Assembly (NCBI RefSeq): GCF_035994185.1
Contig: NZ_CP108538.1
Span: forward strand, 8,187,501 to 8,251,500
DNA from: Streptomyces sp. NBC_01217
GTDB lineage: Bacteria > Actinomycetota > Actinomycetes > Streptomycetales > Streptomycetaceae
DNA length: 64,000 bases
Direction: 5' to 3'
Shown here: one piece after another, positions 4,416 to 24,552 of the stretch
How the letters are laid out: every line of letters starts with the position of its first letter
Numbering within the stretch: position 1 is the first letter of the stretch
Translations under genes and position numbers: made by a program
The notes under the pieces: generated by a model
Databases searched by the model: none
What the model was told of the DNA's origin: nothing
What the model saw: the letters and a program-made list of their open reading frames with translations, nothing else

Positions 4416-5743
4416 TGAATTCGCACCGGACGCAGACCGTCCGCCGCAGACTCGCCGGAGTCACCTTCCTCCTCGTGCCCGCCGTGCTCGTGTGGGTGTC
4501 CGTCTCGGTGTACGAGAAGGACTTCACCGACGACGCCACCGTGACCGTACGCACCGGCAGCGTCGGCAACGAGATGCACGACAACGCGGACGTGAAGCTG
4601 CGCGGAGTCGTCGTCGGACAGGTCCGCGACATCTCGGCCGACGGCGACGGGGCCCGGCTCACCCTCGCCATCCAGCCCGACAAGCTCGACCGGATCCCGG
4701 CCGACGTGACCGCCCAGATGCTCCCCACCACGCTCTTCGGGGAACGGTTTGTGGCGCTCGTACCGCCCGGGATGCCGTCCGCGCAGCCCCTGCGGGCGGG
4801 GGCCGTCATCCCGCAGGACCGTTCCAGCAACGCCATCGAGCTGGAGGAGGTCCTCGACAACGTCCTGCCGCTGCTGACCGCGGTCAAGCCGGAGAAGCTC
4901 GCCGCCACCCTTGGCGCGGTCTCCCAGGCGCTCGAAGGACGCGGCGAGAAACTCGGTGACACACTCCTCGCGCTCGACGCCCATCTTGAGAAGTTCAACC
5001 CCCAACTCCCCACGCTCAACGCCGACATCAAGGAACTCGTCAAGGTGAGCAAGGTGTACGAGGACGCCGCCCCCGACGTCCTCGACGCGCTCACCGACTT
5101 CACCACCACCAGCGGCACCATCGCCGAGCAGCAGGCGCAACTCGCTGACCTGTACGGGTCCACGACCGCCTCCGCCCAGGACATCACCTCGTTCCTCCAG
5201 GAGAACAAGGACAACCTGATCCGGCTCTCCGCCACGGGCCGCCCGACGCTGGAACTGCTGGCGCGGTACTCGGACGAATTCCCCTGCACCCTGCGGACCC
5301 TGGCCGGCTTCGTCCCCGCCATGGACAAGGCGCTCGGCAAGGGCACCGACCAGCCCGGACTCCACGTCTCCGTCAAGTCCGTCAAGTCCAAGGGCAAGTA
5401 CGTGCCCGGCCGGGACGCCCCGGTCTACGACGCGACCGGCGGACCGCACTGCTACTCCGTGCCGTACGTGGGCCGGACCGCGCCGACCGCCGACGTCCGT
5501 ACGGCCGAGGCGGTCACCCCGGCCGGAAGTGCTCCCACGGACACGGGCATGGGCGCGGACACGGGTACGGGTACGGGTACGGACACAGACCCCGGTCTCG
5601 GCATGCCCAACTCCCCGCAGGAGAGCCAACTCGTCAACGAACTGGTCGCTCCCTCACTGAAAGTCCAGCCGCAGACCCTGCCCGACTGGAGCAGCGTGCT
5701 CATCGGTCCGGCTTTCCGCGGTGCGGAGGTGAAGCTCAAGTGA
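4415..5743 (+). CDS. mceA: Mce family protein A (MlaD domain)
   Basis: A 442-residue membrane-anchored protein. One N-terminal helix (about residues 15-33) is followed by an MlaD/Mce domain (about 40-118, with DVKLRGVVVGQV), then a long helical region with coiled-coil character that in related systems forms the periplasmic lipid tunnel. Two Cys follow the helical part (FPCTL and PHCYS). Residues near 375-395 are a low-complexity Thr/Gly/Asp stretch. The stop overlaps the mceB GTG start as GTGA. It should be one of six chains in a hetero-hexameric Mce tube; the transported lipid is unknown. Confidence 0.9.
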   Translation: MNSHRTQTVRRRLAGVTFLLVPAVLVWVSVSVYEKDFTDDATVTVRTGSVGNEMHDNADVKLRGVVVGQVRDISADGDGARLTLAIQPDKLDRIPADVTAQMLPTTLFGERFVALVPPGMPSAQPLRAGAVIPQDRSSNAIELEEVLDNVLPLLTAVKPEKLAATLGAVSQALEGRGEKLGDTLLALDAHLEKFNPQLPTLNADIKELVKVSKVYEDAAPDVLDALTDFTTTSGTIAEQQAQLADLYGSTTASAQDITSFLQENKDNLIRLSATGRPTLELLARYSDEFPCTLRTLAGFVPAMDKALGKGTDQPGLHVSVKSVKSKGKYVPGRDAPVYDATGGPHCYSVPYVGRTAPTADVRTAEAVTPAGSAPTDTGMGADTGTGTGTDTDPGLGMPNSPQESQLVNELVAPSLKVQPQTLPDWSSVLIGPAFRGAEVKLK

Positions 5744-13998: not shown

Positions 13999-15228
13999 AT
14001 GAGGTTCAACGGCACCATGCGCCGCGGGCTCGGTGGCACGGCAGCCGCGGTCGCCGCCATGGCCGCGCTCACCGCGTCCCAGGCACCGGGACTCGCCCGC
14101 CACGAGCCGACCGCGAAGGAGCGCCAGGAGGCCGACGAGGTCAGGTGGTCCCAGATACCCAATGACGACTCGTACCACACCGAACTGCCGCCGCTGCAGT
14201 CTCCGAAGCCGCCGAAGACCGGTGTGAAGCAGAGCCCGGCCGTCGCCCGCTCGTGGGCCGAGGCGGGCATCCCGGCCACCGTGCTCGCCGCCTACCGCAA
14301 GGCACAGAGCGCACTCGGGCGCACCGACTCCGAATGCCGTCTGCCGTGGCAGTTGCTCGCGGCGATCGGCAAGGTCGAATCCGGCCAGGCCGGCGGGGGA
14401 CGGGTCGACGCCCACGGCACGACGACCGTCCCGATCCTCGGGCCGGTGCTCAACGGCGCGGGCTTCGCCAACATCCCGGACACCGACAACGGCGCGTACG
14501 ACGGTGACAGGCGGTACGACCGGGCGGTCGGCCCCATGCAGTTCATCCCGTCCACCTGGGCCCATTGGGGCAGGGACGGGAACGGCGACGGCCGCCGCGA
14601 CCCGAACAACGTCTACGACGCCGCCCTGGCCGCCGGGTACTACCTCTGTGCCGGGCCCCGTGATCTGTCCGTGAAGGCCGATCTGGACCGGGCGATCCTC
14701 AGCTACAACCACTCGGACACGTATCTGCGCACCGTGCTGTCCTGGCTGGAGTTCTACCGCAAGGGCATCCATCCGGTGGCCGACGGCAAGGGCCCCGTAC
14801 CGAAGAGCCCCGGCGCGGGCGGCCCCAACAAGCCGACACACCCGGTCGGCGGTCCCGGCGCCCCGGGCGGCGGCATCATCGTGGGCCCGCAGCCCGGCGG
14901 TTCGCCCGGGCCCTCGTCATCGGCGTCCCCGGAGCCATCCGACTCGCCGACCGGTTCCCCGGACCCGAGCGGCTCCACCGACCCGACCGACCCCACGGGC
15001 TCCCCCGATCCGACCGACAGCGGATCAGCCACCCCGGACCCCGGCACGAGCCCCGACCCGGACCCAAGCACCTCGGAACCCGACCCGGGCCCCGACCCCG
15101 GCTGTCCCACGGATTCCGCATCCCCCGACCCGACCGACTCGGCCGGCACCACCGAGTCCCCGTCGCCCGACCCCACCACGAGCGAGGACCCGTGCGCCAC
15201 GCCGTCGGGCTCAGAGTCCGCCGCCTGA
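13999..15228 (+). CDS. Secreted lytic transglycosylase (SLT) with Pro/Ser/Asp-rich tail
   Basis: A 409-residue exported enzyme predicted to cleave peptidoglycan. The start ATG 13999 follows a GGGGAG site. A signal sequence (about 1-35) precedes a linker and a transglycosylase domain (about 110-265). This contains the catalytic-type Glu127 in GKVESG, the VGPMQFIPSTWA motif, and the helix NNVYDAALAAGYYLC. From about 275 onward the protein is a Pro/Gly/Ser/Asp-rich tail typical of cell-wall-embedded proteins. It lies 22 bases after the last Mce-associated gene, so it may open the wall for the Mce tube. Its last 18 bases overlap the convergent ligase gene. Confidence 0.88.
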   Translation: MRFNGTMRRGLGGTAAAVAAMAALTASQAPGLARHEPTAKERQEADEVRWSQIPNDDSYHTELPPLQSPKPPKTGVKQSPAVARSWAEAGIPATVLAAYRKAQSALGRTDSECRLPWQLLAAIGKVESGQAGGGRVDAHGTTTVPILGPVLNGAGFANIPDTDNGAYDGDRRYDRAVGPMQFIPSTWAHWGRDGNGDGRRDPNNVYDAALAAGYYLCAGPRDLSVKADLDRAILSYNHSDTYLRTVLSWLEFYRKGIHPVADGKGPVPKSPGAGGPNKPTHPVGGPGAPGGGIIVGPQPGGSPGPSSSASPEPSDSPTGSPDPSGSTDPTDPTGSPDPTDSGSATPDPGTSPDPDPSTSEPDPGPDPGCPTDSASPDPTDSAGTTESPSPDPTTSEDPCATPSGSESAA

Positions 15229-16278
15229 CAGCACCTCGGCCAGGTCGTACCGCACCACCTCTTCCAGCTGCGCGTACGTGCAGCTCGCGGGGGTGCGGTC
15301 CGGCCGCCACCGGCGGAACTGGGCGGTGTGCCGGAAACGGTCGCCCTCCATGTGGTCGTACGCCACCTCGCACACCCGCTCCGGACGCAGCGCCACCCAC
15401 GACTGGTCCTTCTTCCCGGACCAGCGGCTCGGCGTTCCGGGCAACCGGGCGCGCTCATGCGCCTCGGCGTCCGCCCAGGCCGCCCACGGATGGCCGGTGA
15501 AATCGATCCGCAGCGGCTCCAGCTCCGCGATCAGCTCCTCACGGCGCTTCATCGAGAAGGCGGCGCAGACTCCGACGTGCTGCAAGACGCCCTCGGAGTC
15601 GTACAGGCCGAGCAGCAGCGAGCCGACGACGGGGCCGCTCTTGTGGAAGCGGTACCCCGCCACCACACAGTCCGCGGTCCGCTCGTGCTTGATCTTGTAC
15701 ATCACCCGGGTGTCGGGGCGGTACGGCAGATCGAGCGGTTTGGCGACGACGCCGTCCAGCCCCGCGCCCTCGTACCGTTCGAACCACTCCTGGGCGAGGG
15801 CCGGATCCGTGGTCGCCGGTGCGAGGTGGACCGGGGCCGACGCACCGGACAGAGCCGCCTCCAGCACGGTGCGCCGGTCGGACTGCCTGGTGGAGAGCAG
15901 CGAGTCGTCGCCCACCGCCAGGATGTCGAAGGCGACCAGACTGGCCGGGGTCTGCTCGGCGAGCAGCCGCACCCGGGAATCGGCGGGGTGGATGCGCTCA
16001 CTGAGCCGGTCGAAGTCCAGCCGGCCCTCGTACGCGATCACGATCTCGCCGTCGATCACACAGCGCGGCGGCAGATTGTCCCGGACGGCGGTGACCAGCT
16101 CGGGGAAGTAGCGGGTGAGCGGCTTTCCGGTGCGGCTGCCGATCACCACCTCGTCGCCGTCGCGGTGCACGATCGCGCGGAATCCGTCCCACTTGGCCTC
16201 GTACTGCATACCGGGCGGGATCTTCGAGACGGACTTCGCGAGCATCGGCTTCACAGGCGGCATCACCGGCAGATCCAT
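15211..16278 (-). CDS. ATP-dependent DNA ligase (LigC/LigD-ligase type)
   Basis: A 355-residue stand-alone ligase. The nucleotidyl-transfer Lys is K29 in YEAKWDGFRA. Further motifs include VIDGEIVI, LVAFDIL, GVVAKPLD and MYKIKHER, the usual adenylation set. The C-terminal half is the OB domain. The length and lack of other domains fit the LigC branch used in backup or end-joining repair. It is divergent from a LigD-type polymerase gene, and together they look like a LigD split into separate chains. The gene is probably leaderless or has a very short leader, since only 77 bases separate it from the polymerase start. Confidence 0.9.
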   Translation of the reverse strand: MDLPVMPPVKPMLAKSVSKIPPGMQYEAKWDGFRAIVHRDGDEVVIGSRTGKPLTRYFPELVTAVRDNLPPRCVIDGEIVIAYEGRLDFDRLSERIHPADSRVRLLAEQTPASLVAFDILAVGDDSLLSTRQSDRRTVLEAALSGASAPVHLAPATTDPALAQEWFERYEGAGLDGVVAKPLDLPYRPDTRVMYKIKHERTADCVVAGYRFHKSGPVVGSLLLGLYDSEGVLQHVGVCAAFSMKRREELIAELEPLRIDFTGHPWAAWADAEAHERARLPGTPSRWSGKKDQSWVALRPERVCEVAYDHMEGDRFRHTAQFRRWRPDRTPASCTYAQLEEVVRYDLAEVLSGGGL

Positions 16279-16330: not shown

Positions 16331-16355
16331 GTGAGTCCGGCCTACCGTGACCGTC

Positions 16356-17387
16356 ATGGGCGCAGTGGGAAAAGCGGTGGAACTGGAAGCCGACGGACGG
16401 GTCGTACGGCTGTCCAGTCCGGACAAGCTGTACTTCCCGGAGAAGGGCTACACGAAGAGGGACGTGGCCGAGTACTTTCTGGCCGTCGGCCCCGGCATCA
16501 CGCGCGCCCTGCGCAACCGGCCGACCACCCTGCAGCGCTTCGTCGACGGTGTCGAAGGCGAGTTCTTCTACCAGAAGCGCGCCCCGAAGAACCTCCCCGA
16601 CTGGATCCCCACCGCCCGGATCGCGTTCCCCAGCGGCCGCCCGGCCGACGAGATCTGCCCCACCGAACTCGCCGCCGTGATCTGGGCGGCCAACCTGGGC
16701 ACCCTCACCTTCCACCCCTGGCCGGTCCGCAGCACCGACACCGACCACCCGGACGAACTGCGCATCGACCTCGACCCACAGCCCGGAACGGACTACGCCG
16801 ACGCGGTGAGGGCCGCCCACGAGCTGCGGTCCGTACTCGACGAGCACGGTCTGCGCGGCTGGCCCAAGACCTCCGGCGGCCGGGGCATCCATGTCTTCGT
16901 CCCCGTCGAGCCGCGCTGGACCTTCACCGAGGTCCGGCGCGCCGCCATCGCCGCCGGGCGCGAACTGGAACGCCGGATGCCGGACCGGGTGACCACCGCC
17001 TGGTGGAAGGAGGAGCGCGGCGAGCGGATCTTCGTCGACTTCAACCAGACCGCCCGCGACCGCACGATCGCCTCCGCCTACTCCGTACGCCCCTTTCCGC
17101 ACGCCCCGGTCTCCGCCCCGCTGCGCTGGGAGGAGATCGACGACGCCCGGCCGGGCGACTTCGACATCAGGACCATGCCCAAGCGCTACGCCGAGGCCGG
17201 CGACGTGCACGCGGACATGGACGAACACGCCTTCCGGCTCGACGGACTGCTGGAACTGGCGGACCGCGACGAGCGGGAGCGCGGCCTCGGAGACCTGCCG
17301 TACCCGCCGGAGTACCCGAAGATGCCCGGCGAACCGAAGCGGGTCCAGCCGAGCCGCGCCCGGAACGACGAGGACGGCGATGCATGA
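16356..17387 (+). CDS. LigD-type polymerase/primase (PolDom)
   Basis: A 343-residue protein of the archaeo-eukaryotic primase-like polymerase family found in LigD. The metal-binding pair is D138 and D140 in RIDLDPQ. Other family marks are SSPDKLYFPE near the N-terminus, the KTSGGRGIHVFVP phosphate-binding segment, and the C-terminal DFNQTARDRTIASAYSVR. Such proteins fill or extend DNA ends during non-homologous end joining. ATG 16356 is used; GTG 16347 in the same frame is possible. The stop overlaps the next gene as ATGA. No ku gene is in the window. Confidence 0.88.
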   Translation: MGAVGKAVELEADGRVVRLSSPDKLYFPEKGYTKRDVAEYFLAVGPGITRALRNRPTTLQRFVDGVEGEFFYQKRAPKNLPDWIPTARIAFPSGRPADEICPTELAAVIWAANLGTLTFHPWPVRSTDTDHPDELRIDLDPQPGTDYADAVRAAHELRSVLDEHGLRGWPKTSGGRGIHVFVPVEPRWTFTEVRRAAIAAGRELERRMPDRVTTAWWKEERGERIFVDFNQTARDRTIASAYSVRPFPHAPVSAPLRWEEIDDARPGDFDIRTMPKRYAEAGDVHADMDEHAFRLDGLLELADRDERERGLGDLPYPPEYPKMPGEPKRVQPSRARNDEDGDA

Positions 17388-18463
17388 GCGCATCCGACCC
17401 GGAGCCCGTCACCCCGCACGGGGAACACGCCCGGCCCCTGGCCCGCGGTGACCGATGGGCGGCGTTCAAGGAGTCCCCGTATCTGCCCGCCGTCGTGCTC
17501 CTGTTCATCATCGCGGCCGCGGCCGGTCTCTTCGCCGGCTCCTATACGTACGCGATGGCCAACCCGACCCCGCGCAACATCCCGGCCGCCGCGGTCGACT
17601 ACCCCGACACCCCGCGCGACAAGGTCTTCCTCGACCGGCTGGAGGGCACGCTCGACACCTCGCTGGTGCTGCACGAGTACGCCACCGAGGCCGAGGCCCG
17701 CACAGCGCTGGAGGAGCAGAAGGTCTTCGCCGTCCTGCGGTCCCAGAACGGCGGGGTCGGCCTGGACATCGCGAGCGCGTCCGGAGCCTCGGTCGCCCAA
17801 CTGCTCGCCGAGTCCACGCTGAAGGCGGGGGAAGCGGCCCGTGTGCCGGTCAAGGTCACGGACGTGAAGCCCCTGCAGCGGGGCGACCCGCGCGGCCTCG
17901 CCCTCTTCTACATCTCGCTCGCCGCGGTGATCATCGGATTCGTCGGCGCGATCCAGCTGAGTGTGCACGCCAAGGGGCTGGAGCCGCTGGAGCGGGTCGG
18001 GTTCACCATCGCCTACGCCCTGCTCGGCGGGTTCGCGATCGCCGCTGTGGTGGACTGGCTGCTCGGCTCCGTCGACCTGCCGTTCGTCCAGTCGTGGATG
18101 ATCCTCGCCCTCACCATGTTCACCACGGGCATGGTCTTCACCATGTTCAACACCCTGATCGGGCGCTGGGCGATGATCCCCACCTGGGGACTGATGGTGA
18201 TGCTCGGCAACCCGTCCTCCGGCGGTGCGGTGTCCTGGCCGCTGCTGCCGTCGCTGCTCGGCTTCATCGGCCGCTGGCTCCCTCCGGGCGCCTCGGTCAA
18301 CGCCCAGCACGCCGCCGTCTACTACCAGGGTCACCAGCGGGTCTTCCCGTACCTGGTGCTCGCCGGATGGCTGCTGGTCTCCTGCGCCGTGTTCTGGACA
18401 CTGCGCCACCGGCACCCGGGAGGCCGCGACCACATGCCTCAGCATGCGGCCGCGGCCACCTGA
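17384..18463 (+). CDS. Integral membrane protein (YhgE/DUF3533-like)
   Basis: A 359-residue membrane protein coupled to the polymerase gene by an ATGA overlap. One N-terminal helix (about 32-52) is followed by an extracytoplasmic domain (about 55-160), then five hydrophobic helices (about 165-345). This topology is shared with YhgE/Pip and ABC-2-permease-like proteins, which I use as the nearest description. The C-terminal tail is His-rich. No ATPase partner is adjacent and the substrate is unknown. A role in DNA repair is not evident despite the coupling. Confidence 0.75.
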   Translation: MSASDPEPVTPHGEHARPLARGDRWAAFKESPYLPAVVLLFIIAAAAGLFAGSYTYAMANPTPRNIPAAAVDYPDTPRDKVFLDRLEGTLDTSLVLHEYATEAEARTALEEQKVFAVLRSQNGGVGLDIASASGASVAQLLAESTLKAGEAARVPVKVTDVKPLQRGDPRGLALFYISLAAVIIGFVGAIQLSVHAKGLEPLERVGFTIAYALLGGFAIAAVVDWLLGSVDLPFVQSWMILALTMFTTGMVFTMFNTLIGRWAMIPTWGLMVMLGNPSSGGAVSWPLLPSLLGFIGRWLPPGASVNAQHAAVYYQGHQRVFPYLVLAGWLLVSCAVFWTLRHRHPGGRDHMPQHAAAAT

Positions 18464-18475
18464 TGCCGGACCCGG

Positions 18476-20710
18476 CTACAGCTCCTTGATACGGATGTCG
18501 CGGTAGGAGATCACATCCGAGGTGCTGTGGACCTGGAGTCCGATGTAGCCGGACGAGTACCGCCTGCCGTCGGTGCCCGGGTCGTCGCCCCGCGGCGGCT
18601 CGAAGACCTGGCCGCCGTTGTTGTCGAACTCGTTCAGCAGGACACCGTTGCGGTAGATCGAGTAGTGCTGGTCCACCACCCGGATCTCGTAGTCGTTCCA
18701 GGTGCCCTTGGGCGTGACCCCGGCGCCGGCCAGACCGATCCGGTCGAATCCGTAGATCGAGCCGGTCTTGTACATGTCGCCGTCCGGCTTGTCGAGGATC
18801 TGCACCTCATGGCCGTACTTGATGGCGACCCACTCCGGGCGGGACTCCTCCGGGTTGTCGTGGACGTTCGGGAAGCGGACGAAGACACCTCCGTTGGCGT
18901 TGCCCGTGCCGGGGGCGTCGTCGCGCCACTGGAGCTTGAGCGAGAAGTCGCCGTACTGCCGTCCTGGGAACCAGAGCATCCCCATGCCGTCCACGGTCGT
19001 GGAGCTGGTGATCGAGCCGTCGGCGTTGAGCCCGAACTTGCCACCGCCGACCTGCTGCCACTTGGCGAGCGAGGCCGCCGTGCCGTCGAAGAGCTTCTTG
19101 TACCCCTCGTCCTGGCCCGGCTTGCCGATGCCCGACTGCTTGGCCGCCCGGTAGATCTTCTTGTGCTCGCGGGCGTCGATCACCCCGTCGGCGAGAAGCT
19201 TGTCGAGAACCTTGTCGACGTGCTTGAGGAACAGCGCGTGCGACGACCAGTCCTTCTCGTCCTCGATCAGCTCATTGATGGTGCAGCGGTTGCCCGTGAT
19301 GCGGTTGGGTACCCCGGTGTCGACGGTGCCGACGATGACGGTGAGCCGCTCGTCGAACTCCGGGCAGTTCGGCGCGGGTACGCCCCCGCTCTCCGCGACG
19401 GTGAACGACACCTGCTTGGCCTCGGAGGTGTTGCCGGCCTTGTCCGTCGCCCGGTGGGCGACGGTGTGGTAGCCGACGCGGTCGACGATGACGGTGGTGG
19501 TGTACGCGAGGTACGGGCCGCCGTCGAGCGAGTACTCGACCTTGTCCACGCCCGATTCGGCGTCGGTCGCGGTGACCGTCACCCTGGCGCTGGTGATGTA
19601 GGCGTTGTCGGAGTTCTTGTCGCCCTCGACCTTCGCGGAGGTCACCGGCGGCGTCTTGTCCTGCGTCGGCGGTGCGACGACGGTGAAGTCGACCGACTTC
19701 CCGGCCGCCGCGTTGCCCGCCTTGTCGGTGGCCCGGTAGCGGACCTGATGCGTGCCGGTCTCATGCACCATCACGGGTGCGGTGTACGGCTGCCAGGCGC
19801 CGTCCGCCCCGATCGCGTACTCGATGGTGTTGACGCCGGAACCGGTGTCGGAGGCGGTCACGGTGACCGTCGCCATCCCCAGGTACTGACCCTGGTCGTC
19901 CTTCTCACCGGAGACGGTCGCCGAGGTCTCCGGCGGTGTCGTGTCGTTTGTCGGCGGCGGGGCGACCGCGAAGCCGACCGACTTCTCGGCCGCCGCGTTG
20001 CCCGCCTTGTCGGTGGCGCGGTACCGGATGGTGTGCGTCCCGACCTCGTTCACCACGATCGGTGTGGTGTACGGCTGCCAGGCGCCGTCCGCCCCCACCG
20101 CGAACTCGACGGTGCCGACACCGGAGCTGTCATCGGTCGCGGAGACGGTGACCGTCGCCTGACCGATGTACGCGCCGTCGGCGTTCCTGTCGCCGTCCAC
20201 CTTCGCGGAGGTCTCGGGCGCGGTGGTGTCATCGCCGCCCCCGTCCTCGGTCACGGTGAGAATGCCCTGCATCGCCTCGTGGCCCGGCATGGTGCAGTGG
20301 TAGAAGTACCGGCCGGGCGAGAGCGTGACCTCGGCGGTGTGCCTGCCGCCCTGGTCGTCGGCCGGGTTGGCCAGGATGTTCAGCGTGACGTCGTTGTTGA
20401 ACTCCGGGTCCGAGACGCTGAAGGTGAGGGTGTGCGGCATCCCCGTGGTGTTGCCGGTCGCCGCGCTGTTCTCGAAGACGATGGTCGCCTTGCCGGCCAC
20501 CGCGGTCTTCGGAGCCGACAGATAGTGGTCGATCGGGTCGCCCGCCGTCCAGGTGAGGACCTGGTCCGCCGCCGCGGCGGCGGGAGCCGCCGTACGGCCG
20601 TACGCCGCCGTCGAGGTCAGCCCCAGCACCATCAGGAACGAACCCAGCAGGGCGAGCCACAACCGGGCGGGACGGTACCGCTGTCGCGAGAGGATCGAAC
20701 GGTGTCTCAC
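18476..20710 (-). CDS. Secreted cupredoxin / OmpL47-repeat / 3-keto-disaccharide hydrolase-like protein
   Basis: A 744-residue exported multidomain protein. GTG 20710 is chosen because it overlaps the upstream gene's TGA (GTGA) and is followed at once by a signal sequence. A cupredoxin-like domain (about 45-150) has a plausible copper site in FYHCTMPGHEAM. Three OmpL47-type beta repeats follow (starting near 165, 255 and 350), each with DxSGVxxVEYxxxxGxW and YRATDKAGN. After an Asp/Lys-rich linker comes a DUF1080 / 3-keto-disaccharide hydrolase-like domain (about 533-744), with LKLQWRDDAPGTGNGG-type beta-sandwich sequence. Some relatives of this last domain act on 3-keto-glycosides. It is probably produced with the ThuA/dehydrogenase protein and works on the same sugar. 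Confidence 0.85.
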   Translation of the reverse strand: MRHRSILSRQRYRPARLWLALLGSFLMVLGLTSTAAYGRTAAPAAAAADQVLTWTAGDPIDHYLSAPKTAVAGKATIVFENSAATGNTTGMPHTLTFSVSDPEFNNDVTLNILANPADDQGGRHTAEVTLSPGRYFYHCTMPGHEAMQGILTVTEDGGGDDTTAPETSAKVDGDRNADGAYIGQATVTVSATDDSSGVGTVEFAVGADGAWQPYTTPIVVNEVGTHTIRYRATDKAGNAAAEKSVGFAVAPPPTNDTTPPETSATVSGEKDDQGQYLGMATVTVTASDTGSGVNTIEYAIGADGAWQPYTAPVMVHETGTHQVRYRATDKAGNAAAGKSVDFTVVAPPTQDKTPPVTSAKVEGDKNSDNAYITSARVTVTATDAESGVDKVEYSLDGGPYLAYTTTVIVDRVGYHTVAHRATDKAGNTSEAKQVSFTVAESGGVPAPNCPEFDERLTVIVGTVDTGVPNRITGNRCTINELIEDEKDWSSHALFLKHVDKVLDKLLADGVIDAREHKKIYRAAKQSGIGKPGQDEGYKKLFDGTAASLAKWQQVGGGKFGLNADGSITSSTTVDGMGMLWFPGRQYGDFSLKLQWRDDAPGTGNANGGVFVRFPNVHDNPEESRPEWVAIKYGHEVQILDKPDGDMYKTGSIYGFDRIGLAGAGVTPKGTWNDYEIRVVDQHYSIYRNGVLLNEFDNNGGQVFEPPRGDDPGTDGRRYSSGYIGLQVHSTSDVISYRDIRIKEL

Positions 20711-23199
20711 TGCACTGCCGCCTTCCTGGCCAGATCCTCGGCGGCCGGGGTCGGACCGCCGCCCTTGTACGTCACACGCCACAGCGCGGACTTGGAGTCG
20801 GAGGTGAAGAAGCCGCGCCCGTAGTCCAGGACGTACAGCGAACCGTCCGGGGCGAACTTCCAGTCCATCAGGTTGCGGATGCCGTCGGCCCCCACCGGGA
20901 TGATCTTCTTCAAGGACTCGGCGTGCGTGGGCAGACCGCCCCTTCCGGCCGTCTTCGGGTCGGTGAGCACGGCGTGCCGCGGTTGGGTGTCGTCGTAGAA
21001 GTCGCCGACGAACCACTTGCCGTCCCAGTAGGAGGGCCACTTGTCGGCGCTGGTGCTCGCCGCGTCGTACCGGTAGACCGGGCCGTTCATCGTCGCCTGA
21101 CCGCCGCCCTTGAGCCACGGCAGCAGCTGCTTCTGGTCCTCCACCTTGTAGCTCGGGATGCCGTTCGCGTCGCGCGGGTAGTCCACGCCACCGCCCTGCG
21201 GCGAGTACCAGATGGTGTTGGAGGTGATCGGCGGCAGATTCACCAGGCCGTCGTTGTTCGGCGACTCGTTCCTGGGGTGGTCGCAGTCGTACCAGCCGAG
21301 CGGCTTGCCCGGGTCCGGCAGATTGCGGTCCCGGTAGGGCTGCTTGTTGCCCATGCAGTACGGCCAGCCGTGGTTGCCCGCCTTGGTGATCGCGGCGAAC
21401 GTGTCGTACTTCGCCGGACCCCAAGTGGTGCTCGGCGCGCCCGCGTCGGGGCCGACCCAGCCCGCGTACAGAGTGTCGGTCGCCCTGTCGACTGAGATCC
21501 GGGCCGGGTTGCGCACACCCATCACATAGATCTCGCCGCGGGTCTTGCCACCGCCCTCGTCCGGTTCCTGGCCGGTGAAGAGATTGCCCTCGGGCAGTGT
21601 GTACGTGCCGTCGTCCTCGGGGTGGATCCGCAGGATCTTCCCGTTGAGGTTGTTCGTGTTGCCCGCGGTGCGCCGGGCATCGGCGAACGAGACGCCCTTG
21701 TAGTTCGGCTGCGGGTTGTTGCCGGAGTAACCGTCGCTGAAACCGGAGGAGTTGTTGTCACCGGTCGCGATGTACAGGTTGCCCTTGGAGTCCCAGGCCA
21801 TCCCGCCGCCCGCGTGGCAGCAGCTGTGGATCTGGACCGGCCAGTGCAGCAGCACCTTCTCGGAGGCGAGATCGAGCTTGTTGGTGGCCAGGTCCAGGGT
21901 GAACCGGGAGACCTGACGCACCGCCATCTGCTTGTCGCGGTCGATCTTCGAGTGGGGTGTGTAGTGCAGATACACCCAGCCGTTCTTCTCGAAGTCCGGG
22001 TCCAGCTCGATGCCGAGCAGCCCCTCCTCGACCTTGACCAGTTCGTCGCCGCCGCCCTTGTTGCCGAAGATGGTCAGCTCTCCGGCGAGAGTGACCTTCT
22101 TGGTCCCGGGGTCGTAGACATGGATCTGTCCCAGACCCTTGCCGATCTCCGGGTTGTTCCAGTCGGTGACGACCGGCTTGCTGTTGTCGGCGCCACCGCG
22201 CCCGATGTACAGCACCCGCCCGTCGGGGGCGACGACCAGCCCGTGCGGCTCGCCGATCTGGTCGTTGCGGCCCGGCTGGTTGGGCTGGGTGACGCGCTCG
22301 GCCTTGTAGTTGGAGGTGATCGTCGCACTGCAGTCGGCCTGCGATATCCGCGTCGTCCAGTCCAGCGCGCCGCGCAGATGGTCGCGGAAGTCGGTCTCCG
22401 CGAAGCTGTCGACCGTGCCGCCCATCGCCGTGTAGAAGGACCTGCCGCCGTCGTAGTCCCGGCACCAGGAGACCGGGTGGTCCCAGCCGTTGGCGCTCGC
22501 GCCCGGCTTGTACGTGATCTCCCGGACGCGCGCCACGGTGTGCACCTCACCGGACGGATTCTTCGTCCAGTTCAGCCACTTGTCGGGGCGCTTCCACTCC
22601 AGCGGGAGCTTCTTCGTCGCCGGGTGCTGCCGGTCGCCGATCTCAACCGTCGCGCGCTGTACGTTGCTTGGGCTGTCAGCGGCCGGGCGCGCCCCGACCA
22701 GAGCGGTGAACCAGTCCGAGTACGGTTCGGTGCGTGCCGCGTCATGGATGCCGAGGAAGCCGCCGCCGGCCTCCATGTACGCCTCCAGACCCGCCTCCTG
22801 CTCCGGGTCGAGGACGTCGCCGCCACCGGTCAGGAAGACGACGGCGTTGTACTTGCCGAGCTGCTTGCCGTTGGTGAAGACGGCCGGGTCGTCGGTGGCA
22901 ACGGTCCGGAACCGGCCGGCTTCCGGCCCGGTCAGCCCGATCCTCTCGATCGCCGCGATCCCGGCGTCGACGGTCGGGGACTCCTCGGTGGCGGAGGCGT
23001 GGAACACCAGCACCTTGACGTTGGCGCCGCCCGGTGGCGACGGCAGGGACAACGTTGTCCTGATGCTGTTCGGTGGATCCGGATAGGGCCTCGCGCTGGC
23101 GGCGTTGCCGCCGAGTAAGGAAGCGGTCAGTGCGCCGGCGGCCAGGGCCGCCGCGAGACCGCGTCGCGATCTGGACCTGTGATGTGGTGTGCGCTTCAT
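20707..23199 (-). CDS. Secreted ThuA-domain / PQQ-type sugar dehydrogenase protein
   Basis: An 830-residue exported protein starting at ATG 23199 behind GAGGGGTGGG; GTG 23211 sits too close to that site. A signal peptide (about 1-40, basic and Arg-rich) precedes a ThuA-like domain (about 50-265, with VVFLTGGGDVLD and FLGIHDAA). A six-bladed propeller of the glucose/sorbosone dehydrogenase family follows (about 285-820, with PHGLVVAPDGRVLYIGRGG, HSCCHAGGGMAWD and NGKILRIHPEDDG). ThuA proteins are linked to 3-keto-sugar metabolism. The propeller type uses PQQ or acts as a lactonase-like enzyme. No PQQ synthesis genes are in the window. The stop overlaps the next gene. Confidence 0.87.
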   Translation of the reverse strand: MKRTPHHRSRSRRGLAAALAAGALTASLLGGNAASARPYPDPPNSIRTTLSLPSPPGGANVKVLVFHASATEESPTVDAGIAAIERIGLTGPEAGRFRTVATDDPAVFTNGKQLGKYNAVVFLTGGGDVLDPEQEAGLEAYMEAGGGFLGIHDAARTEPYSDWFTALVGARPAADSPSNVQRATVEIGDRQHPATKKLPLEWKRPDKWLNWTKNPSGEVHTVARVREITYKPGASANGWDHPVSWCRDYDGGRSFYTAMGGTVDSFAETDFRDHLRGALDWTTRISQADCSATITSNYKAERVTQPNQPGRNDQIGEPHGLVVAPDGRVLYIGRGGADNSKPVVTDWNNPEIGKGLGQIHVYDPGTKKVTLAGELTIFGNKGGGDELVKVEEGLLGIELDPDFEKNGWVYLHYTPHSKIDRDKQMAVRQVSRFTLDLATNKLDLASEKVLLHWPVQIHSCCHAGGGMAWDSKGNLYIATGDNNSSGFSDGYSGNNPQPNYKGVSFADARRTAGNTNNLNGKILRIHPEDDGTYTLPEGNLFTGQEPDEGGGKTRGEIYVMGVRNPARISVDRATDTLYAGWVGPDAGAPSTTWGPAKYDTFAAITKAGNHGWPYCMGNKQPYRDRNLPDPGKPLGWYDCDHPRNESPNNDGLVNLPPITSNTIWYSPQGGGVDYPRDANGIPSYKVEDQKQLLPWLKGGGQATMNGPVYRYDAASTSADKWPSYWDGKWFVGDFYDDTQPRHAVLTDPKTAGRGGLPTHAESLKKIIPVGADGIRNLMDWKFAPDGSLYVLDYGRGFFTSDSKSALWRVTYKGGGPTPAAEDLARKAAVQ

Positions 23200-23400
23200 G
23201 TGGTCACCCACCCCTCTTTGGTCACTTCAACAGCGCACGAAGCTAGACCTCTTTTTGCGGCCCGCCAATAGCTATGGCAGCAATGGCACGAACTTTGTCC
23301 TGGGTGTGGATAAACGAAGATCACCCGGCTACGGTGTGGGCCGTCCGGGCGGCACCCGCGCCCCGCCAACCCCGACAAGCTCTGAAGCCGCCTCGATCCC

Positions 23401-23427
23401 CGTAACCTCCGTAACCTCCGCAGTCTC
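23401..23427. promoter_or_regulatory. Three 9-bp direct repeats in a divergent promoter
   Basis: CGTAACCTC occurs twice head to tail (23401-23409 and 23410-23418), followed by the imperfect copy CGCAGTCTC (23419-23427). It lies between the ThuA/dehydrogenase gene and the laccase gene. A weak TTGGCA (23443-23448) and TTAGCG (23466-23471) pair with 17-base spacing follows on the laccase side. Direct repeats at this place could bind an activator. Confidence 0.4.
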
Positions 23428-23487
23428 CGCGATCCGGGCAAGTTGGCAAAAACTCCGTAAATTCCTTAGCGCAGTGGGGAGTTCGAC

Positions 23488-24552
23488 ATGGACAGAAGGA
23501 GCTTCAACCGGCGGATTCTGGTAGGCGGTGGGGTGGCGGCCGCGACGGGTGCGACATCGTTGTCGCTCGGTGCGATCGAGGCCAGCTCGGCAGAACCCCC
23601 GCCCAGGACCGCCCCGGCGGGAGGTGTGGTCCGCCATCTCAAGCTGTACGCCGAGAAGCTGGCGGACGGTCAGATGGGATACGGCCTGGAGAAGGGCAAG
23701 GCAACGATTCCGGGCCCCCTCATCGAGCTCAATGAGGGCGACACCCTGCATATCGAGTTCGAGAACACCATGGATGTTCCGGTCAGTCTTCACACACACG
23801 GCGTCGACTACGACATCGCGAGCGACGGCACCCGGCTGAACAGGAGCATCGTCGAACCGGGTGCCACCCGCACCTACACCTGGCGCACCCATGCGCCGGG
23901 CCGGCGCAAGGACGGCACCTGGCAGCCGGGCAGCGCGGGCTACTGGCACTACCACGACCATGTCGTCGGTACGGATCACGGCACCGGTGGCATCCGGAAG
24001 GGCCTGTACGGTCCGCTGGTCGTCCGGCGCAAGGGGGACATCCTGCCGGACAAGACGATCGCGATCGTGTTCAACGACATGACGATCAACAACAAGGCGG
24101 CCCATGAAGCCCCCGACTTCCAGGCCACGGTGGGGGACCGGCTCGAAGTGGTCATGATCACGCACGGCGATTACTACCACACGTTCCATATTCACGGTCA
24201 TCGCTGGGCGGACAACCGGACCGGCCTGCTCACCGGCCCGGACGACCCGAGCCGCGTCATCGATACGAAGATTGTCGGCCCGGCGGACTCCTTCGGGTTC
24301 CAGGTCATCGCGGGCGAACACGTGGGTGCCGGTGCCTGGATGTACCACTGCCATGTCCAGACTCACTCCGACATGGGCATGGCCGGGCTGCTGCTGGTCG
24401 CCAAGGCGGACGGAACGGTGCCGGGCTACGACCCGCACGACATGACGACCCACAGCACGCCGGCTCCGGGCAAGACCGCACCGGACGCGGCGGCCCCGGG
24501 CAAGACGCCAAAGGACACGGCCCCTCACGACCCGGCGGCACACGGGTCCTGA
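23488..24552 (+). CDS. slac: Two-domain small laccase (multicopper oxidase)
   Basis: A 354-residue secreted laccase that oxidises phenols or other donors and reduces oxygen to water. The N-terminus MDRRSFNRR is a twin-arginine signal. Copper ligands are visible at H102/H104 (HTHG), H154/H156/H158 (WHYHDH), H231/H234/H236 (HTFHIHG) and H287-C288-H289/H293/M298 ([13 protein letters not shown]). The C288 and M298 positions agree with those I recall for S. coelicolor SLAC. Two cupredoxin domains instead of three mean it acts as a trimer. The tail after about 315 is Pro/Lys/Thr-rich. A GGGGAG site precedes the ATG. It is divergent from a cupredoxin/dehydrogenase pair. Confidence 0.95.

Follow-up and report, generated by a model that had tools for sequence, protein, structure and literature searches.

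A divergent set of three genes in Streptomyces sp. NBC_01217, encoding a ThuA-dehydrogenase fusion (A), a multidomain cupredoxin protein (B) and a two-domain laccase (C), forms a real conserved unit, far beyond chance. The genes occupy positions 18476-24552 of the stretch analyzed here (64,000 nucleotides, hereafter the window) and are together called the trio or module. The near-constant pairing of the laccase with A and the cupredoxin, together with a spacer repeat shared with a sugar pathway, suggests that the laccase naturally serves to hand electrons released in sugar oxidation on to oxygen.

The genes for B (18476-20710, minus strand; 744 aa) and A (20707-23211, minus strand; 830 aa from the ATG at 23199 or 834 aa from the GTG at 23211) have the GTGA at 20707-20710 in common as the stop of A and the start of B, and both are divergent from C (23488-24552, plus strand; 354 aa). 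This layout, including the coupling of A to B and the domain make-up of all three proteins, agrees with the preliminary description of this DNA.

Conservation of the trio in Streptomyces

A survey of 150 Streptomyces genomes was carried out with thresholds of E ≤ 1e-80 for the laccase, E ≤ 1e-130 for A and E ≤ 1e-100 for B; genome searches scored only the best candidates from a first pass (e.g. 13/28). The laccase was found in 93, A in 91 and B in 90 genomes. Laccase and A occurred together in 90 genomes, whereas 3 had just the laccase, 1 had just A and 56 had neither. All 90 laccase/A pairs were located divergently on one contig, with 170-451 bp between the matches (median 232). The only genome with A and no laccase (G071), in which the contig ends just past A, was excluded from the tree counts for this reason.

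The rpoB tree comprised 100 of the 150 genomes, i.e. all 59 A-negative and 41 of the 91 A-positive ones, with SH-like approximate likelihood ratio test (SH-aLRT) values as the only support. The presence of A needs 19 changes on this tree, at least 13 of which are forced by well-supported branches. Among 12 independent pairs that differ in the laccase on supported branches, A showed the matching difference in a mean of 11.8 and an opposite one in none (median p 0.0005). As one deletion can remove adjacent genes, joint change of A and laccase is not proof by itself.

The flanking LigD primase-polymerase gene (LigD-pol) was therefore informative as a control. It was present in 143/150 genomes, and since the 7 genomes without a match all carry A, none of the 59 A-negative genomes lacks it. 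The surroundings of LigD-pol in 14/59 A-negative genomes gave no match to the other queries, including the membrane gene described below and an SNF2 gene (E ≤ 1e-10), and thus do not reveal a clean empty site or a precise excision. Neighbor clustering showed that, apart from the module genes, the widest cluster spans 14/85 loci.

In the window, LigD-pol (16347-17387) is followed by a gene (17384-18463) for a membrane-type protein of 359 aa that gave no Pfam match; only some of the fetched loci had a match to it next to the module or the laccase. One genome (G141) contains a full module (L052) and, at a different place next to LigD-pol, another laccase that lacks A and B as partners (L053 7309-8238).

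Conservation and domain reshuffling in other lineages

A class-wide survey of 296 genomes (A-type threshold E ≤ 1e-110) showed the laccase in 45 and A-type matches in 51. Outside the genus, 23 of the 24 laccase genomes have their best A-type match (<1e-200) within a few kb on the same contig; in the exception, G163, a cupredoxin lies beside the laccases at a contig end. Seven further A-type genomes from outside the genus gave weaker matches, taken as paralogues, and G163 is the only one of these with a laccase. Named genomes were also scanned with the GSDH profile, without the laccase as a query. Among the best 80 of 541 relatives, the laccase was present in 75 loci and laccase plus cupredoxin in 72; two of the five loci without laccase (L211 and L213) start at a contig edge. 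The genes thus co-occur commonly, both here and in the 90/150 Streptomyces genomes, whereas the preliminary description had named rare co-occurrence as an argument against a common system.

The 80 loci belong to nine families, namely Jiangellaceae, Pseudonocardiaceae, Streptomycetaceae, Micromonosporaceae, Streptosporangiaceae, Promicromonosporaceae, Allobogoriellaceae, Ruaniaceae and Nocardiaceae. In the other families, PF06439 is mostly fused behind the GSDH domain, in A and not in B, a gene of its own encodes the cupredoxin with OmpL47 repeats, and the orientation varies. In L022, an F5/8-type sugar-binding domain is inserted in ThuA, and a PKD domain is also present. The parts of the module are therefore reshuffled yet stay together across lineages.

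Other Streptomyces and Peterkaempfera, both of the Streptomycetaceae, carry the module in a second form, in which the cupredoxin gene is divergent from the laccase and is followed by a fused ThuA-GSDH-PF06439 gene (ten loci: L174, L175, L176, L180, L182, L185, L189, L195, L204 and L206). Laccase genes are paired side by side at the module in L019, L021, L027 and L212. L230 encodes, close to the module, a protein that combines DUF1996 with an F5/8-type C domain (14813-16222), and the cluster of this protein covers six loci of two families.

An inverted repeat shared with sugar genes

The conserved core of the A-laccase spacer contains the inverted repeat TTTGTCC-N7-GGATAAA (23294-23314, no strand assigned). 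With at most two mismatches to the perfect repeat, it was found in the spacer of 25/25 genus module loci, comprising the window and 24 fetched loci out of 91 A-positive genomes. Outside the spacer, the 24 fetched loci, which together cover 364,716 bases, contained no repeat with ≤2 mismatches and 3 with three mismatches. The laccase spacers of the lone-laccase loci L034, L035, L036 and L053 contained no repeat. A further weak match with 2 mismatches lies in the window at 5309-5329; the chance expectation for the window is 0.05.

The scan of the whole genome with one mismatch allowed returned 5 places (9 strand hits), one of which is the module, and 2 hits for the reversed control. At 8065785, the repeat stands ~110 bp ahead of a ROK gene (PF00480 E 2.6e-58; start set by eye), the leading gene of a sugar ABC operon that also encodes a Gfo/Idh/MocA dehydrogenase and a xylose-isomerase-like TIM barrel protein. 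The repeat at 8073394 precedes a GSDH-PKD-CBM6-ThuA-PF06439 gene adjoining this operon, and the one at 374473 precedes a PA14-CBM-PF06439 gene. The remaining site, at 4938260, falls on the beginning of a gene for a pyridine-nucleotide-disulphide oxidoreductase, possibly by chance. The stretch 8065018-8077333 of the genome (L262 11019-15790 and L251 741-9334) is one locus with two repeat copies, comprising a GntR/FCD gene, the ROK gene, the sugar ABC importer, the Gfo/Idh/MocA and isomerase genes and the gene for the GSDH-PKD-CBM6-ThuA-PF06439 protein (1244 aa). The regions of other own-genome paralogues (L252-L254) contained no repeat with ≤3 mismatches.

Similar sites were also observed at the second form of the module. 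In each of the ten loci, a related site with 2 mismatches precedes the laccase match by ~290-340 bp, in the interval that separates the laccase from the divergent cupredoxin gene. The module has a ROK gene as its neighbor in 7/10 stretches: L174, L176, L180, L182 and L185, in which the ROK gene is 82-84% identical to the ROK gene of our genome, and L189 and L195; the stretches covered in L175, L204 and L206 contained no ROK gene. Over the 80 named loci, 12 repeat sites with ≤2 mismatches were found, compared with 1 for the control pattern.

Sharing of the repeat by a ROK gene and sugar genes is the pattern of a ROK-controlled sugar regulon, and we propose the repeat as a candidate ROK operator, with a ROK-family protein as its putative regulator. 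Because this operator-like repeat is shared with the ROK/ABC/Gfo-Idh-MocA/isomerase operon and with two other PF06439 genes, a link of the module to sugar metabolism is supported, and the sugar context assumed in the preliminary description is borne out. Two possible promoters were recognized by eye in the conserved spacer: TTGGCG-17 nt-TAGCTT for A (23240-23268, minus strand; spacer core) and GTGGAT-18 nt-TACGGT for the laccase (23306-23335, plus strand), the -35 element of which is overlapped by the inverted repeat. A generic promoter scan of the DNA found no promoter.

Features of the three proteins

C has the two cupredoxin-type domains (Cu-oxidase_3 and Cu-oxidase_2) and the size (~300-350 aa) of the two-domain SLAC family and lies near SLAC; an RR-containing signal was recognized by eye. 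Its closest solved relative is the laccase 3cg8 (E 8e-174). The PDB search matched 134 sequences, and the first 50 of the best 60 are small laccases or like copper oxidases, mutants included. The copper-site motif HCHxxxHxxxxM is present in C and complete in 114/115 sources, L030 having Val for Met. C has no second close copy in the genome, where the next match has an E of 1.8e-5, and it also matches TIGR02376, a family of Cu nitrite reductase kin (E 1.7e-7).

B is secreted-looking and consists of a cupredoxin domain, three OmpL47 repeats and a PF06439 domain. The cupredoxin domain (20246-20578, minus strand; model with a predicted local distance difference test score of about 97) matches PF00127 (plastocyanin/azurin) at E 0.003; its score of 18.3 bits is below the cut-off of 21.2, and that of the L022 homologue, 23.4, is above it. 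The domain has the full type-1 copper ligand set H...C-x4-H-x2-M, and the four ligands His, Cys, His and Met are complete in 107/107 domains found among 121 sources, a point that supports the preliminary description. The three OmpL47-type beta-sandwich repeats (19376-20230, minus strand; NF047446, three stretches, E 1.3e-78, above cut-off) look like a spacer or scaffold, and the 3-keto-disaccharide-hydrolase-type domain (18485-19105, minus strand) matches PF06439 at E 7.8e-34, above cut-off. The predicted model of the PF06439 part was poor, and the structure search with B returned mainly Ig-type repeats. A PDB sequence search with B alone gave no match.

A is also secreted-looking and joins a ThuA domain (22354-23016, minus strand; PF06283 E 7.9e-59, above the Pfam cut-off), supported by both profile and fold, to a six-bladed GSDH propeller of the sGDH/AA12-like kind (20755-22323, minus strand; model range 293-815; PF07995 E 5e-25, above the Pfam cut-off). 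The Pfam scan of A, B and C found no further dehydrogenase family and nothing like the LacABC dehydrogenase.

The structure alignments, which included A from 34/80 named loci and 23 cupredoxin plus 20 PF06439 stretches of B, showed that H462, R563 and N564 of A align with active-site positions of sGDH (1c9u), presumably H144 and R228-N229, and that they are invariant in 35 rows. In the alignment with 1c9u, the His of A falls on the active-site His and the second Cys of A on its Asp. H462 is surrounded by IHSCCHAGG, and the motif CysCysHis-x-Gly-Gly (CCHxGG) was found in 115/115 related GSDH domains. The vicinal CysCys directly before the active-site-type His (residues 460-462) is invariant and occurs in two own-genome GSDH paralogues as well (L005 and L008, both with CCHxGG); the other own-genome GSDH paralogues gave no match to the search pattern. 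The CysCys of A recalls the CysCys ring over pyrroloquinoline quinone (PQQ) known in methanol dehydrogenases. The 15-16 kb around four own-genome GSDH paralogues contained no cupredoxin or laccase match.

Proposed electron path

We propose a plausible electron path from the dehydrogenase through the cupredoxin and the laccase to O2. In response to a sugar or glycoside, a ROK-family repressor would release the operator located within the divergent promoter, allowing joint expression of both arms, the importer and the catabolic enzymes of 3-keto-sugar type. In A, the GSDH domain would take electrons from an extracellular carbohydrate, ThuA and the PF06439 domain would reshape or cleave the oxidized sugar, and the tethered cupredoxin of B would carry single electrons to the type-1 copper of the laccase, which would reduce O2 to water. 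The analysis itself establishes the unit with its copper ligands, its domain reshuffling and its shared repeat, whereas which regulator acts, which way the electrons move, the substrate, the cofactor of A and the carbon that is oxidized are inferred. The excerpt of a review (PMC7036934) on bacterial laccases gives low type-1 potentials (<460 mV), which would suit a cupredoxin donor.

That the trio is one secreted, copper-dependent, sugar-processing oxidase system with this chain seems to us close to an even chance. A broader claim is offered more tentatively and at clearly lower probability: across actinomycetes, the two-domain laccase may serve as the terminal oxidase of a membrane-free extracellular chain that is glycoside-induced via the ROK repressor and feeds 3-keto or otherwise oxidized sugars to the importer pathway, with a dehydrogenase cofactor that may be other than PQQ beside the conserved CysCysHis.

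Small laccases are among the best-solved bacterial oxidases, yet for the Streptomyces enzyme, the same review excerpt offers only speculated roles, e.g. in morphogenesis, pigmentation and lignocellulose degradation (PMC7036934). Near-obligate partners, a cupredoxin as candidate donor and a repeat shared with sugar genes make the question of the natural reductant directly testable. If the proposal is true, secreted ThuA-GSDH fusions would gain a function, and sugar oxidation would be linked to O2 extracellularly without a membrane chain.

Several observations weigh against the proposed path. Three genomes (G056, G113 and G144) have the laccase without A and B; in G113 and G144 it is kept between the same flanking genes, and since the two are sisters on the rpoB tree, their loss of A and B may be one event. 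Conversely, L197, L218 and L228 have A-type genes without a laccase in the stretch covered. In G036, an A-positive genome absent from the B list, B consists of cupredoxin and OmpL47 repeats without PF06439, so that an essential role of the PF06439 domain is not supported. The repeat is clear only in Streptomycetaceae and weak or absent in 82 loci outside: with ≤3 mismatches, the vicinity of the laccase start had 7 sites (two with 2 mismatches; most from one group, g15/Microbispora) compared with 2 for the control, and 13 sites elsewhere in 1.47 million bases compared with 8.

The cofactor adds to these points. A search of this genome at E 1e-10 gave no PqqC match. Among the 150 genomes, PqqC was above cut-off in 32, comprising 18/91 A-positive and 14/59 A-negative ones (Fisher p 0.68), and is thus not associated with the module. 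PQQ for A would therefore have to come from outside, or the cofactor would be a different one. In the propeller, the sGDH contacts that we take to be Asp143 and Gln246 are replaced by Cys and by Trp/Leu in A, respectively, and two PQQ-contacting arginines look replaced by eye; the remaining PQQ contacts of sGDH are presumably Q246, K377, R406 and R408. The C-terminal region of A was unaligned to sGDH in the alignments obtained, and the arginines were judged absent by eye only. E. coli and others run PQQ enzymes on externally supplied PQQ, and an aldose dehydrogenase of S. coelicolor has been solved with PQQ (3das, by title), so that the PqqC result only weakens the case for PQQ in A. PQQ as the cofactor of A is therefore doubtful, and the preliminary description of A as a PQQ-type enzyme found no support. 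The same description had the sugar oxidized at C3. This is unproven, as it is drawn from the ThuA and PF06439 names and the shared repeat, and PQQ GSDH enzymes are known to oxidize C1.

Alternative explanations

The main rival is the breakdown of phenolic glycosides, in which ThuA, PF06439 and GSDH free or modify the sugar, the laccase oxidizes the released phenol downstream instead of acting as the electron sink of A, and the cupredoxin is a scaffold or mediator. The unit and its regulation are common to both readings, including the repeat shared by module and sugar genes, and only the electron path differs. The rival draws on the portion of PMC3918160 in which SLAC oxidized 12/23 compounds tested, plant phenolics among them, on an excerpt of PMC9007349 that describes the action of DUF1080 proteins on 3-keto disaccharides and names 3-ketosalicin, a phenolic glucoside, as a suspected further substrate, and on the 3-keto-C-glycoside lyase chemistry on polyphenols in part of PMC13273386. 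However, it leaves the cupredoxin copper ligands kept in every domain found unexplained, and none of the nine classified neighbor clusters (of 25 listed) is an aromatic-catabolism gene. We regard it as possible but unlikely.

A second alternative keeps the extracellular chain but not a quinoprotein: the propeller would bind another cofactor or only the substrate, and the redox step would take place elsewhere, e.g. in the laccase through a mediator. The invariance of His462, Arg563 and Asn564 argues against it, as does E. coli Asd, a PQQ enzyme even though its host does not make PQQ. We consider it improbable.

Copper handling, with the laccase as a Cu(I) oxidase, the cupredoxin as a copper store and the sugar domains as wall anchors, appears slightly less probable still. 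One paper lists SCO6710 as a putative CsoR copper target; by its numbering next to SCO6712 it perhaps equals B, and such control would fit copper handling too and so also counts against the proposed electron path. With the CsoR consensus from an excerpt of PMC3902906, no CsoR-type operator with ≤3 mismatches was found at 18-25 kb of the window, and no TACC-N4-9-GGTA was present in 23 spacers; CsoR control was accordingly rejected. Copper handling also gives ThuA and GSDH no role, and it does not account for a conserved repeat common to sugar genes. Passive linkage, i.e. joint inheritance of neighbors without common function, could draw on the synteny of LigD-pol and other flanks in close relatives and on the ease with which adjacent genes are lost jointly, but was rejected as very improbable because LigD-pol remains where the trio goes, the trio survives rearrangement, refusion and changed orientation in nine families, and the repeat is shared.

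Comparison with known systems

All of the protein families are known; the shared spacer repeat is new. A literature search of limited extent returned no description of the laccase/A/B set as one system. The closest counterpart of C is SLAC of S. coelicolor (SCO6712) with its relatives, to which C is a close sequence relative with the copper motifs kept. The SLAC literature, in the portions consulted, treats the enzyme alone, acting on phenols, and these portions make no mention of partner genes or sugar regulation.

Compared with sGDH, aldose sugar dehydrogenase and AA12 pyranose dehydrogenase, A differs in being joined to ThuA, in the vicinal CysCys before the His and in the apparent loss, by eye, of the PQQ arginines, and no PqqC was found in its genome. 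The periplasmic 3-keto-lactose pathway of Caulobacter (LacABC plus DUF1080), as far as covered by the excerpt of PMC9007349, is similar in that extracytoplasmic sugar oxidation is coupled to a PF06439 protein. LacABC, however, is a three-component dehydrogenase, in place of which GSDH, cupredoxin and laccase are found here.

The ThuA/ThuB trehalose-utilization operons share the ThuA domain, and the operon that shares the repeat has an ABC importer, a Gfo/Idh/MocA dehydrogenase and an isomerase. In contrast to these operons, ThuA is here secreted-looking and fused to GSDH, and the importer operon is about 130 kb away. Cu nitrite reductase, whose electron donors are cupredoxins, resembles the module in that C is its kin by TIGR02376 and the proposed donor is a cupredoxin; the module differs in that its laccase would reduce O2 and not nitrite, and in that the donor is encoded by a separate gene and tethered on OmpL47 repeats.

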